A program made the position numbers and the translations under genes. Below are positions 4,681-17,032 of a stretch of 39,455 nt of DNA, piece by piece. The DNA is taken from IMG/VR virus record IMGVR_UViG_3300044642_000594, positions 1 through 39,455 of that record, one strand, 5' to 3'. The DNA is from a virus. Under the pieces are notes generated by a model. That model was not told the origin of the DNA. It saw only the letters and a program-made list of their open reading frames with translations, and did no database searches. Position 1 is the stretch's first letter. Each line of letters opens with the position of its first letter.

Positions 4681-4689
4681 ATAGTACCA

Positions 4690-4799
4690 TGTAGAGTGAC
4701 GAAATTGGCAGACGTACCCACCTGTCTCGTGGGTGTGGAACAACTGATAAAGGAATTATCCCTAAAGTCCACTTGGTGGTTCGACTCCATCCTCTACAG
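4690..4799 (+). tRNA. Class II tRNA-like gene with oversized variable region, anticodon read as GTC
   Basis: A full cloverleaf can be folded by eye. The acceptor is TGTAGAG/CTCTACA (4690-4696 with 4792-4798). The D stem is ACG/CGT (4699-4701 with 4713-4715), with an AAATTGGCAGA loop as in bacterial tRNA-Leu. The anticodon stem is CCCAC/GTGGG (4717-4721 with 4729-4733) and its loop is CTGTCTC. The T stem is GGTGG/CCATC (4775-4779 with 4787-4791), with T loop TTCGACT. The anticodon by position is GTC (4724-4726), nominally Asp, although the D arm and variable arm look Leu/Ser-like and base 37 is T. The variable region (4734-4774, 41 bases) has an outer stem GTGGA/TCCAC and an inner GATAA/TTATC hairpin. 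CCA is not encoded. Identity is uncertain. Confidence 0.75.
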
Positions 4800-4828
4800 C
4801 AAATGTTCCTAATACTAATGGAAAAATA

Positions 4829-11493: not shown

Positions 11494-13113
11494 ATGGCAA
11501 CTCCGGTTTTGAACAATGGTATATTTCTACGGGATACCAGCTATCAGACTAGCTCACACGTAGACAGCTACCACCTTTCAAACTTGCTTAAGTCAGCAGA
11601 ACCTACAGACCTTGGTCCAGTAGATTTGTGGGCAATGGCACAAAAAGTAGAAATGCCTTTGTACCAAATGTCTAGCTTTGGCGGTAAGAACGTTATCTCT
11701 GTAGATAACGCACGTGGTGAGTACAAGTGGCAGATTCCTGTTACCCAGGATCTTCCTTATGTAACTGAAGATATTGAATCAGGCAATGCTACTAAAGGTA
11801 TTGATGGTCAGTCCTTCAAGATCAAATTGAACAAGCGTTCTTTTGGTCACGGTGATATTATCACTTATGACAAGTACAATGGTGTTGAAATGTACATCAC
11901 TGCAGATGATATCATCCCTGCTGGTGACGGTTTTATCTACACTGTTCAGTTGGTAAACAATGACAATGCTAAGTTCTTGGATAACAAGTATCTTAAAGTT
12001 GGTACTAAGGTGTTCCGTAAAGGTTCTGCTCGTGGTGAGTATGGTGAAAGATTCTCTGACATCGGTAACATCAACGCTGGATTCCGTGAATTCTATAACT
12101 ATGTAGGTGGAGCTGAAGCTCACGTTCATTATTCTGTAAGCTCTAGAGCTGACTTGATGATGAAAGGTGGAATGAAAGCTGATGGCACAGTTCCAGTTAT
12201 TGAACTTTGGAGAAACTTTGACAAGAGCTCAGATCCTTCTGTTTCTTCTCTAGAAGACATGGCTTCTAAAATGGGTAAAGATTATGTAAAGAAAGCTTAC
12301 CAGTCTGGTCAGTTGACTCGTACATTCTTGACTACTATGGAAGCGGCTCATTTGACCAAAATTGCTAATGACATTGAGACCTACCTAATGTGGGGTCAGG
12401 GTGGTAAAGTTAAGCAGGATGGTCCTGATGATATCCGTCTATCTGTAGGTCTTTGGAAGCAGCTTGATAACTCTTACAAGCGTATTTACAACAAAGGTTC
12501 ATTCAATCTTGACTTGTTTAAGTCTGAGATCTTTAACTTCTTCAACGGTAAAGTTGAATTCCAAGGTCCAGATCCTAAGCGTCAATTGGTTGTACAAACT
12601 GGACTTGGTGGTATGAAGCTTGTTAACGAAGCTATTAAGAAAGAGGCTATCAACTCTGGCTTGGTAATCAATGCTTCTGAAGTAGGTGCTATCACTGGTA
12701 AAGGAATGGATCTAAACTTTGGATTTGCATATACTCAGTACGTTATTCCTTTCTTGGCTAACGTTAAGTTTGTGTTGAACCCAGCGTTTGATAACATTCA
12801 TACTAACGATATTGAGAACCCAATTATTGATGGTTTCCCATTGTCTTCTTACAATTTCATTATCTTTGATATTACTGAGAATACTAACGACAACATCTTC
12901 TTGTTGAAGCTTTCTTGGGATAATCAATTGAAGTGGTTCTATCAGAACGGTACTATGGATTACATGGGACGTACTCAAGGCTTCCAGTCTTCTGGACAGT
13001 TCAACGGTTACCGTGTATTCATGACTCAAACTATGCCAGCTATCTGGGTTAAAGACCCAACCAAGGTGTTGAAGATTGTCATGAGAAACCCAGTTACTGG
13101 AGGATCATTCTAA
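11494..13113 (+). CDS. Major capsid protein (HK97-fold, putative)
   Basis: This 539-residue protein follows the putative scaffold, where the major capsid gene is expected. It has no membrane or catalytic signature. An N-terminal arm-like region (to about 100) precedes a long mixed domain and a beta-rich C-terminus, NPVTGGSF being the last eight residues. An inserted strand-rich segment (about residues 130-200: MYITADDIIPAGDGFIYTVQLVNNDNAK...) could be a surface domain. Codon use differs from its neighbours: arginine is often CGT here, whereas AGA dominates in the fibre genes, which suggests strong expression. Length is in the range of crAss-like capsid proteins. Its leader has the repeated AACCCTT motif, and a structured RNA candidate follows the stop. 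Confidence 0.82.
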   Translation: MATPVLNNGIFLRDTSYQTSSHVDSYHLSNLLKSAEPTDLGPVDLWAMAQKVEMPLYQMSSFGGKNVISVDNARGEYKWQIPVTQDLPYVTEDIESGNATKGIDGQSFKIKLNKRSFGHGDIITYDKYNGVEMYITADDIIPAGDGFIYTVQLVNNDNAKFLDNKYLKVGTKVFRKGSARGEYGERFSDIGNINAGFREFYNYVGGAEAHVHYSVSSRADLMMKGGMKADGTVPVIELWRNFDKSSDPSVSSLEDMASKMGKDYVKKAYQSGQLTRTFLTTMEAAHLTKIANDIETYLMWGQGGKVKQDGPDDIRLSVGLWKQLDNSYKRIYNKGSFNLDLFKSEIFNFFNGKVEFQGPDPKRQLVVQTGLGGMKLVNEAIKKEAINSGLVINASEVGAITGKGMDLNFGFAYTQYVIPFLANVKFVLNPAFDNIHTNDIENPIIDGFPLSSYNFIIFDITENTNDNIFLLKLSWDNQLKWFYQNGTMDYMGRTQGFQSSGQFNGYRVFMTQTMPAIWVKDPTKVLKIVMRNPVTGGSF

Positions 13114-13129
13114 TAAAATAATATCTAAT

Positions 13130-13280
13130 GCAGGGGGATTTAGGTCTCCCTGCTGAAGATATGCCAATGCCTCCCCGTAGATAGTCTCTGCGGGCCACCT
13201 ATTGTACGCGTACCATGGTGATCACATGGGGAGCTCGCAACTCTCAATAGGTTCTAAACGTGAGGTCGCAAAATGCGACC
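13130..13280 (+). ncRNA. Structured RNA candidate between capsid and next gene
   Basis: The 199-base gap after the capsid gene is GC-richer than the sequence around it and folds by eye into four consecutive elements. A 9-bp hairpin is at 13130-13138 with 13145-13153 (one G-U). An 8-bp hairpin is CCCGTAGA/TCTGCGGG (13174-13181 with 13187-13194). A longer-range stem is ACCTATTG/CAATAGGT (13197-13204 with 13245-13252), enclosing CCATG/CATGG (13213-13217 with 13225-13229). A 7-bp hairpin is GGTCGCA/TGCGACC (13264-13270 with 13274-13280). No long open frame crosses it. No T-run follows the stems, so a plain terminator is unlikely. It does not fold as a tRNA. Possible roles are a stable 3' end protecting capsid mRNA, an attenuator, or a small RNA. 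Confidence 0.55.
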
Positions 13281-13295
13281 GCTAGTTGTAATAAA

Positions 13296-13312
13296 AACCA
13301 AATAAACCAAAC
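13296..13312 (+). promoter_or_regulatory. A-rich leader motif before gene at 13313
   Basis: Two AACCAAA-type units in tandem (13296-13302 and 13305-13311) precede the ATG at 13313, as before the genes at 293 and 10189. It is a Bacteroidota-style leader without a Shine-Dalgarno sequence and supports the chosen start. Confidence 0.4.
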
Positions 13313-14329
13313 ATGAGCGGAGTAACAATCGTGGAGAAGTATCCACAAAACAAAAAGTCCACTATTGCCATTAGACCATTCTTTGATCCAATGGTAGATA
13401 ACATGGGACTACAGAAGTATGGATTAAGTCTTTTTGATGGAGCTTTTCATGAGGAACAGCTAGCTTGTCTTGAGATTAACGGTATCAAACGATATATTAC
13501 AGGATTGAATGAGTTTTCACCTGAAGTTAAAAATTTGCCTGCTGAAGATCAAGAAGCTAAAATCAAACAGATTAGAGTAGTAGTAGCTCAGTTAGAAAGA
13601 GAACTAGCTGCCAATGTTGTAGAACCTACTGATGAGCAGTTCTGGAACAAAATTAAATTAATGAAACCTGATAATTCAGAGTTTTGGGATAAGATTAAAA
13701 TTAGATGCGGCAACGAACCTACTTATCTAGAACCTGATAAAGATCCATATGATTTAATTAGATTATATGCTATTGACGCAGGAGGATTTTCAATTGTAGC
13801 TAAAAGCTTGGAAGAAGCACGCAGAATGCCAGTTCCTCCAAAGTTTTATTTGGACAAGCTTGAAGAAACTGCATCAGTGCAAACAGAAGTTAAGAAGCTT
13901 CGTAATAAAGCTCTTTCCGAACTTCAGAAGTTGTTTGATAAGAATCAGAATAAGTTATTGTATGTAGCAAAAGTGCTAGATGCAAACAGTGCTCAGTATA
14001 AGAAGTCTACTCCTAATGATATTATCTATGACAACATGGATAAATACATCAATGGGGATCTTGTAGAAAAAGATAAGCGTAAAACCGCTCAGAGATTCTT
14101 AGATGCTGCTACACTTGATATGGAAACTTTAAAGATTAGAGCAATTGTTAAAGATTCATCATATTTTAAGTTTATTGCAACTAAAGCTGATGGGTTTATC
14201 TACCACATGGAAACTACAACAATGTTAGGACGAACTCCTTCTGATTGTGTAGAATACTTGAAAAATCCTTTGAACGAAGAGATTTTGGTAGACTTAACTA
14301 AGAAGGTTGAGAAGTATTGGAATCAATAA
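13313..14329 (+). CDS. Putative virion structural protein, 338 aa
   Basis: This 338-residue mostly alpha-helical protein comes immediately after the capsid gene. It opens with a short strand-rich region (SGVTIVEKYPQNKKSTIAIRPFFDP). It continues with a charged helical core (VVVAQLERELAANVV; ETASVQTEVKKLRNKALSELQKLF). A near-duplicated short motif occurs in the middle: FWNKIKLMKPDNSEFWDKIKI has the FW(N/D)KIK unit twice. The C-terminus reads RTPSDCVEYLKNPLNEEILVDLTKKVEKYWNQ. I do not recognise the family. Position between capsid and connector genes suggests a head-completion or internal virion protein. An 11-bp perfect hairpin follows its stop. Confidence 0.65.
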   Translation: MSGVTIVEKYPQNKKSTIAIRPFFDPMVDNMGLQKYGLSLFDGAFHEEQLACLEINGIKRYITGLNEFSPEVKNLPAEDQEAKIKQIRVVVAQLERELAANVVEPTDEQFWNKIKLMKPDNSEFWDKIKIRCGNEPTYLEPDKDPYDLIRLYAIDAGGFSIVAKSLEEARRMPVPPKFYLDKLEETASVQTEVKKLRNKALSELQKLFDKNQNKLLYVAKVLDANSAQYKKSTPNDIIYDNMDKYINGDLVEKDKRKTAQRFLDAATLDMETLKIRAIVKDSSYFKFIATKADGFIYHMETTTMLGRTPSDCVEYLKNPLNEEILVDLTKKVEKYWNQ

Positions 14330-14336
14330 AAACAGT

Positions 14337-14370
14337 ACCTGGATGCTTACTATAAGAACAGCATCCAGGT
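14337..14370 (+). terminator. Perfect 11-bp hairpin after gene at 13313 (terminator or mRNA stem)
   Basis: ACCTGGATGCT (14337-14347) pairs perfectly with AGCATCCAGGT (14360-14370) across a 12-base loop in the 52-base gap between two genes. The bases after it are CATTATAAAAT, without a U-tract. A true intrinsic terminator is therefore doubtful, and an RNA-processing or stabilising stem is equally likely. Confidence 0.45.
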
Positions 14371-14381
14371 CATTATAAAAT

Positions 14382-16894: not shown

Positions 16895-16916
16895 GGATAG
16901 TTAGTTTATAAACACT

Positions 16917-16952
16917 AAGGGAGAGGACACACGTCCCTCCCTTTTTGTTTTT
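16917..16952 (+). terminator. Rho-independent terminator
   Basis: AAGGGAG(A)GGAC (16917-16928) pairs with GTCCCTCCCTT (16933-16943) through 11 base pairs with one bulged A and an ACAC loop. It continues into TTTTTGTTTTT. It lies 23 bases after the stop at 16894 and closes the capsid/structural transcript. This is the clearest intrinsic terminator in the window. Confidence 0.85.
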
Positions 16953-16962
16953 GGACATGTCC
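16953..16962. promoter_or_regulatory. Palindrome GGACATGTCC after terminator
   Basis: This perfect 10-bp palindrome sits directly after the T-tract, 30 bases upstream of the TTGTATTCT element. It could be an operator for the downstream unit. It also repeats the GGAC/GTCC ends of the terminator stem, so chance or a competing RNA fold is possible. Confidence 0.3.
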
Positions 16963-16991
16963 CTAAAAATTAGTATATTATTATTGAGAAC

Positions 16992-17000
16992 TTGTATTCT
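16992..17000 (+). promoter_or_regulatory. TTGTATTCT element, putative promoter after terminator
   Basis: TTGTATTCT starts 41 bases before the ATG at 17033, matching in position the TTGTATATT elements before 10189 and 38978. Coming right after a strong terminator it is a sensible place for a new transcript start. It also overlaps a weak GAGAA/TTCTC stem. Confidence 0.35.
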
Positions 17001-17032
17001 CTGATCTACATAAATATTTAAAGTTTACAGCT

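Follow-up and report, generated by a model that had tools for sequence, protein, structure and literature searches.

The crAss-like phages belong to the most abundant phages known, yet to our knowledge the way in which their capsid protein comes to be produced in large excess over the products of adjacent genes has not been established. At the 3′ end of the capsid gene studied here, 199 nucleotides of structured sequence separate it from the next cistron. The window, which is the whole stretch of DNA analysed, is a 39.5-kb virus record (39,455 nucleotides) that encodes a crAss-like terminase (phrog_6681), a portal protein (phrog_6547), and a major capsid protein (MCP; phrog_11589), all on the + strand. 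The MCP gene (11494–13113, + strand, 539 aa) has a product that matches the major head protein PHROG 11589 with an E value of 6e-31 and, by tblastn, is 22–30% identical to the capsid proteins of Cellulophaga phages phi17:2 and phi4:1, Crassvirales cr10_1, ProJPt-Bp1, and Leptolyngbya phage Lbo-JY46. The virus is a crAss-like virus of bacteria. The gene downstream of the gap, which we call gp338 (13313–14329, + strand, 338 aa), has no function assigned and no PHROG or Pfam match above cut-off. Elsewhere in the window, just 5′ of the terminase gene, positions 4681–4828 hold a tRNA-like sequence of class II appearance with a very long variable arm (D-loop GAAATTGGCAGAC, T-loop GGTTCGA, acceptor TGTAGAG/CTCTACA), which is called by neither ARAGORN nor Rfam.

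The gap at 13114–13312 is the longest and most GC-rich intergenic gap of the window (GC 0.46, compared to 0.354 for the window); an earlier note on this DNA had called it structured and GC-richer. Its minimum free energy is –66.5 kcal/mol, against a mean of –46.2 (sd 4.1) for shuffled sequences (z –4.91), and none of 200 shuffles folds as well; a second, independent folding run gave a z of –4.67. Chance structure is ruled out by these shuffles together with the covariation described below. The same note held that the other gaps are short and AT-rich, which is true of most of them but not of 14330–14381 (z –5.4) and 16895–17032 (z –3.4), both of which are structured. The former, 3′ of gp338, is a long hairpin (ACCTGGATGCT/AGCATCCAGGT) of the same type as the post-capsid hairpin of two related loci, L158 and L108.

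Four stems had been proposed within the gap, and each exists where it had been placed, on the + strand. The stem of hairpin A (13121–13162) has 10 bp (13130–13139/13144–13153) rather than the 9 reported, and it lies within an outer 6-bp stem (13121–13126/13157–13162) that had gone unmentioned. Hairpin B (13174–13194) has 8 bp and a loop of the AUAGUAU type, is preceded by a C-rich tract, and is kept in most, not all, relatives. The long-range stem was correctly seen to close over CCATG/CATGG; a further hairpin and a pseudoknot inside it had been missed. Hairpin D (13264–13280, 7 bp, AAA loop) is found 3′ of the extra gene and directly 5′ of gp338 in relatives that carry an extra gene, and an unstructured A/C-rich leader (13293–13312), of a type also seen 5′ of gp338 in relatives, abuts the gp338 start codon. 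What did not survive is the view of the four stems as a single unit, as only 13197–13252 constitutes the conserved core and hairpin A is the counterpart of a terminator hairpin found after the capsid gene in relatives. The reported absence of a U-tract was borne out for A, B, the core, and D, none of which combines a GC-rich hairpin with a U-tract directly after it, and the element is thus not an intrinsic terminator. Nor did ARAGORN or Rfam find a tRNA or tRNA-like match in the gap, again in agreement with the note.

The conserved core (13197–13252, + strand) is described by a covariance model, R1, which scores 75.6 bits in the window. Comparative evidence shows its transcript to fold into an 8-bp closing helix P1 (13197–13204 paired with 13245–13252), an optional hairpin P2, a hairpin P3, and a pseudoknot in which the junction strand that follows P1 pairs with the P3 loop. 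P2 (13213–13229) consists of the stem CCAUG/CAUGG (13213–13217/13225–13229) and a loop containing the self-complementary UGAUCA (13219–13224), while P3 (13230–13244) consists of the stem GGAG/CUCU (13230–13233/13241–13244) and the loop CUCGCAA. The pseudoknot joins GCG in the junction J1/2 (13208–13210) to CGC in the P3 loop (13236–13238). Few unpaired bases are invariant overall; conserved ones include UA in the junction and UGAUCA in the P2 loop. The nested-only minimum-free-energy fold contains the pseudoknot pairs but loses P3. A fourth pseudoknot pair, C13207–A13239, was considered and rejected, as across the family its 5′ base switches 14 times on the tree and the A never changes. In the window the CUCCCC tract could pair with GGGGAG to form a switch, a pairing that, by inspection, relatives do not keep.

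The covariance model that had been called for was built from this fold, and the compensatory changes and presence in close relatives on which the proposal had been made to depend were all found, in 54 distinct rows. Among the 21 aligned pairs, pseudoknot included, 92.5% of cells pair, and double changes occur at 19 of them (155 double-change cells, compared to 35 in shuffles). The covariation score is 0.421, whereas shuffled alignments give 0.189 ± 0.008 and none of 500 matches it; sliding the pairing partners lowers it to 0.116 or less. All eight pairs of P1 show double changes, and 97.6% of P3 cells are paired. Taken alone, the pseudoknot is paired in 97.5% of cells and scores 0.343 against 0.165, a value reached by none of 500 shuffles, although, with three pairs, significance is not reached by measures based on the number or the types of pairs. 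Its outer pair (alignment pair 19–54) shows at least nine compensatory switches on the capsid-gene tree, and the minimum number of Watson–Crick type switches per pair reaches 9 in P1, 11 in P2, and 8 in P3, counts that recombination of the gap with the capsid gene would inflate. The strand test gave 51 G–U against 52 A–C cells, most of the latter at positions that do not behave as pairs. The many mutations that preserve base pairs in this way show that the fold is maintained by selection, and the element is almost certainly real as a conserved structured RNA.

Homologues were collected by two protein-based scans of IMG/VR, which gave 160 loci and 95 distinct MCP-to-gp338 gaps. Hairpin A follows the capsid stop codon in almost all of these gaps, and the core recurs as a unit of about 56 nt, with R1 matches in 75 places. 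One strong match each was found in 19 of 24 long contigs, showing that the core is single-copy per phage; an apparent second copy in contig G008, a weak match on the other strand within an 897-aa open reading frame, was dismissed as chance. A DNA pattern run across the whole of IMG/VR returned 70 stretches, every one of which adjoins the MCP gene, gp338, or both on the same strand. The one pattern match in cellular genomes (10.9 bits) was likewise attributed to chance. Named phages gave no DNA match to the element, and R1 is absent from Leptolyngbya phage Lbo-JY46, Cellulophaga phi17:2, cr10_1, ProJPt-Bp1, and csAssE-Sib.

Natural variants indicate which part of the fold stays constant in the family. 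Some relatives have no P2 (L053, L055, L063, L052, and L044) or only a stub of it, and these keep P1, P3, and the loop–junction pairing. In others the junction strand forms the loop of a small hairpin of its own and kisses the P3 loop, a pairing read by eye in L137 (UACG:CGUA) and in L111, L118, and L143 (GUA:UAC). Because the P2-less and the kissing-hairpin variants both keep it, the predicted loop–junction pairing is the constant feature of the family. Of the 46 rows that have P2, 45 carry a self-complementary sequence at the centre of its loop, in most cases UGAUCA; GUAC, GGCC, and GUUAAC are found once each. Two further structures were seen in these gaps. At the start of the MCP-downstream gap, L048 carries a single hairpin with a P3-like loop (CTCGTAAC) and no junction strand, still located 5′ of a start codon. 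Beside the core in the MCP–gp338 gap of L084, L097, L098, L111, L113, L118, L128, L139, L143, and L148 lies another structured RNA module, about 70 nt long (GTACTCAG...CTGAGTC), which is not in the window and has double changes at 6 of 15 predicted pairs.

The core has a fixed place, between the capsid gene, together with its small satellites, and the late cistron that comes next on the same strand. Its distance from the capsid stop codon ranges among relatives from 31 to 1848 nt, whereas its distance to the next start codon is short, being 14–34 nt where an accessory gene follows (with one exception, L029, at 121) and 23–77 nt where gp338 follows directly. Small genes are variable on both sides of it. 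Given this combination of a variable distance on one side and a short one on the other, the core is a portable, leader-side boundary element. The gene after it may be gp338, a 74–78-aa gene, one of several genes of 150–180 aa, or a 556-aa gene, so the core is not a leader tied to any one gene. The 74–78-aa gene is conserved directly 3′ of the core in L158, L144, L030, L143, L118, and others; its function is unassigned, and the one member checked has no Pfam family above cut-off. Open reading frames of about 260–330 aa are inserted just after the capsid gene in L111/L015, L020, and L052, and those of L111 and L052 have, by eye, the look of LAGLIDADG-type homing endonucleases (DGD motif). Such insertions suggest that the post-capsid junction may be an insertion hot spot.

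What stands at this position in relatives without the core was addressed by a census of terminators in the 20-kb stretches 3′ of the capsid gene in 14 core-bearing and 9 core-lacking contigs, in which a looser scan was added to a strict one that misses bulged hairpins. None of the 14 core-bearing phages has a terminator at the MCP gene, and all 14 have a strong one 3.7–6.3 kb downstream, which in the window is the intrinsic terminator at 16918–16950 (+ strand), 3.8 kb away. Of the nine core-lacking contigs, by contrast, eight have a terminator predicted by at least one scan no more than 150 nt from the fetched start, the ninth (L285) having only a weaker prediction 270 nt in; further terminators lie 6–8 and about 12 kb downstream. 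Hairpin A followed by a U-tract, the textbook form of an intrinsic terminator, is found both in remote crAss-like phages and in the core-lacking clade near the window (about 83–85% capsid identity), where most loci have the hairpin and then 8–9 T in 10. Core-bearing phages are therefore without the post-capsid intrinsic terminator that their core-lacking relatives have, as an association at the level of clades. Compared to the terminator of related phages (e.g., L064 and L073; cr10_1; Cellulophaga phi17:2), which occupies the same position, the core-bearing clade keeps hairpin A, has lost or weakened the U-tract, and adds the pseudoknot core, usually together with hairpin B.

As the core sits where sister viruses have a terminator, it probably sets the output of the genes after the capsid gene. 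The account that we favour, with something short of an even chance of being right, is that a cis-acting intercistronic RNA assumed the terminator's role in uncoupling by serving as a nuclease-resistant mRNA boundary. The core would be transcribed as part of the late operon and would uncouple capsid from downstream expression without stopping RNA polymerase. As a compact boundary resistant to nucleases, it would act with hairpin A to block decay from the 3′ side from entering the abundant capsid mRNA, and the downstream mRNA would gain a defined, protected 5′ leader in which the structure ends just 5′ of the ribosome landing site. We infer in this way the mechanism by which the core would tune capsid against downstream expression. 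The proposal has weaknesses: as two changes suffice to explain presence and absence of the core on the capsid-gene tree, the terminator–core association reflects a very small number of independent events; 6–8 T remain after hairpin A in some core-bearing loci (L044, L053, and L157); and the need for a conserved pseudoknot and UGAUCA loop is left unexplained, since simple hairpins can stabilise mRNA. Two of the earlier suggestions, a stabiliser of the 3′ end of capsid mRNA and an attenuator of downstream genes, stay viable and lie close to this favoured boundary function.

An attenuator in the strict sense, whose co-transcriptional pseudoknot pauses or terminates RNA polymerase independently of a U-tract or with help from Rho at the C-rich tract, could also replace the lost terminator. 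Its site would be identical to that of the sister clade's terminator, nearly all relatives have the C-rich tract immediately 5′ of the core, and the fold is stable. However, a simple hairpin would be enough for this purpose, none of the core helices has a U-tract after it, and the 14–34 nt that separate the core from accessory-gene start codons tie its place to the leader, not to the end of the capsid gene; such an attenuator is doubtful as the main explanation. The same short, constant spacing would suit a translational or ligand-responsive operator, in which binding of a phage or host protein (e.g., excess structural protein) or of a small molecule to the pseudoknot controls the next cistron. 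Compact folds that combine a junction with a pseudoknot are typical of binding RNAs, and the conserved unpaired UA and UGAUCA would fit such a role, but the changing identity of the following gene argues against one dedicated target and leaves the operator rather unlikely. Processive antitermination of the EAR or put kind, in which modified polymerase would read through terminators further down the late operon, is suggested by a single-copy intercistronic core followed by about 26 kb of same-strand sequence, with a strong terminator downstream in 14 of 14 core-bearing phages. The EAR RNA of the Bacillus eps operon is likewise a structured cis-acting element between genes of a long operon, where it antiterminates distal intrinsic terminators (PMC7858274). 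Yet downstream terminators of the same kind occur in core-lacking relatives, so that the excess predicted for core-bearing phages was not seen in the census; moreover, neither EAR nor put gave an Rfam match and the host phylum differs from that of EAR, making antitermination improbable.

A self-complementary P2 loop centre (with other palindromes in three rows) and a location among head genes would suit a discrete, trans-acting RNA that dimerises by P2-loop kissing and acts in head assembly or packaging, in principle like phi29 pRNA, another phage three-way junction RNA with possible loop–loop contact. P2 is dispensable in at least five relatives, however, the core tracks start codons, no Bacteroidetes-consensus promoter was found in the gap (13114–13312), and UGAUCA could be conserved for other reasons; homology to pRNA is not detectable, and of the traits of a pRNA, a discrete, oligomerising RNA bound to the portal, the self-complementary loop is what was seen here. 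A packaging role is accordingly very improbable, and the phage small RNA of the earlier note is less likely for the same reasons of promoter and placement. Finally, a small three-way junction with a pseudoknot at an mRNA boundary recalls a self-cleaving ribozyme that would cut the late transcript between capsid and downstream cistrons. Against this, the junction reads UAYGC and the P2 loop UGAUCA instead of CUGAUGA, so that the hammerhead core (CUGAUGA/GAAA) is missing; no Rfam ribozyme matched, few unpaired bases are invariant, and kissing-loop variants tolerate rearranged junctions. The ribozyme is unlikely, and of everything weighed here it would surprise us most.

The Rfam search that the note had recommended found no family: Rfam 15 matched neither the window nor any of 11 diverse relatives, and a search of 13050–13400 down to E 5 returned nothing but a chance match to Xist. 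The literature searched contains no report of this element. Members of the R1 family share P1, P3, and a junction–loop pseudoknot with compensatory changes, at the boundary between capsid and late cistrons on the same strand, and on this comparative footing R1 is a new family of intercistronic RNA, putatively acting in cis, from the late operon of a crAss-like clade, outside all families tested. In its way of working it appears to resemble other intercistronic cis-acting RNAs. REP/BIME-type and other intercistronic mRNA stabilisers are structured RNAs between operon cistrons that are expressed unequally; compared to these, the core is single copy, with a specific three-helix pseudoknot and conserved nucleotides, at one locus of one phage clade.

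The family is well bounded, absent from Rfam, and comes with natural variants and a predicted pseudoknot, and a neighbouring clade with an ordinary terminator at the same place offers a ready-made natural comparison. The GCG:CGC pairing, in turn, allows exact break-and-restore mutations. A bolder possibility, to which we give little credence, is that a pseudoknot RNA that dimerises through its P2 loop or recruits a phage protein has replaced intrinsic termination clade-wide as the switch of capsid stoichiometry. If true, this exchange of a terminator for a pseudoknot would be a new mechanism of late-gene control.
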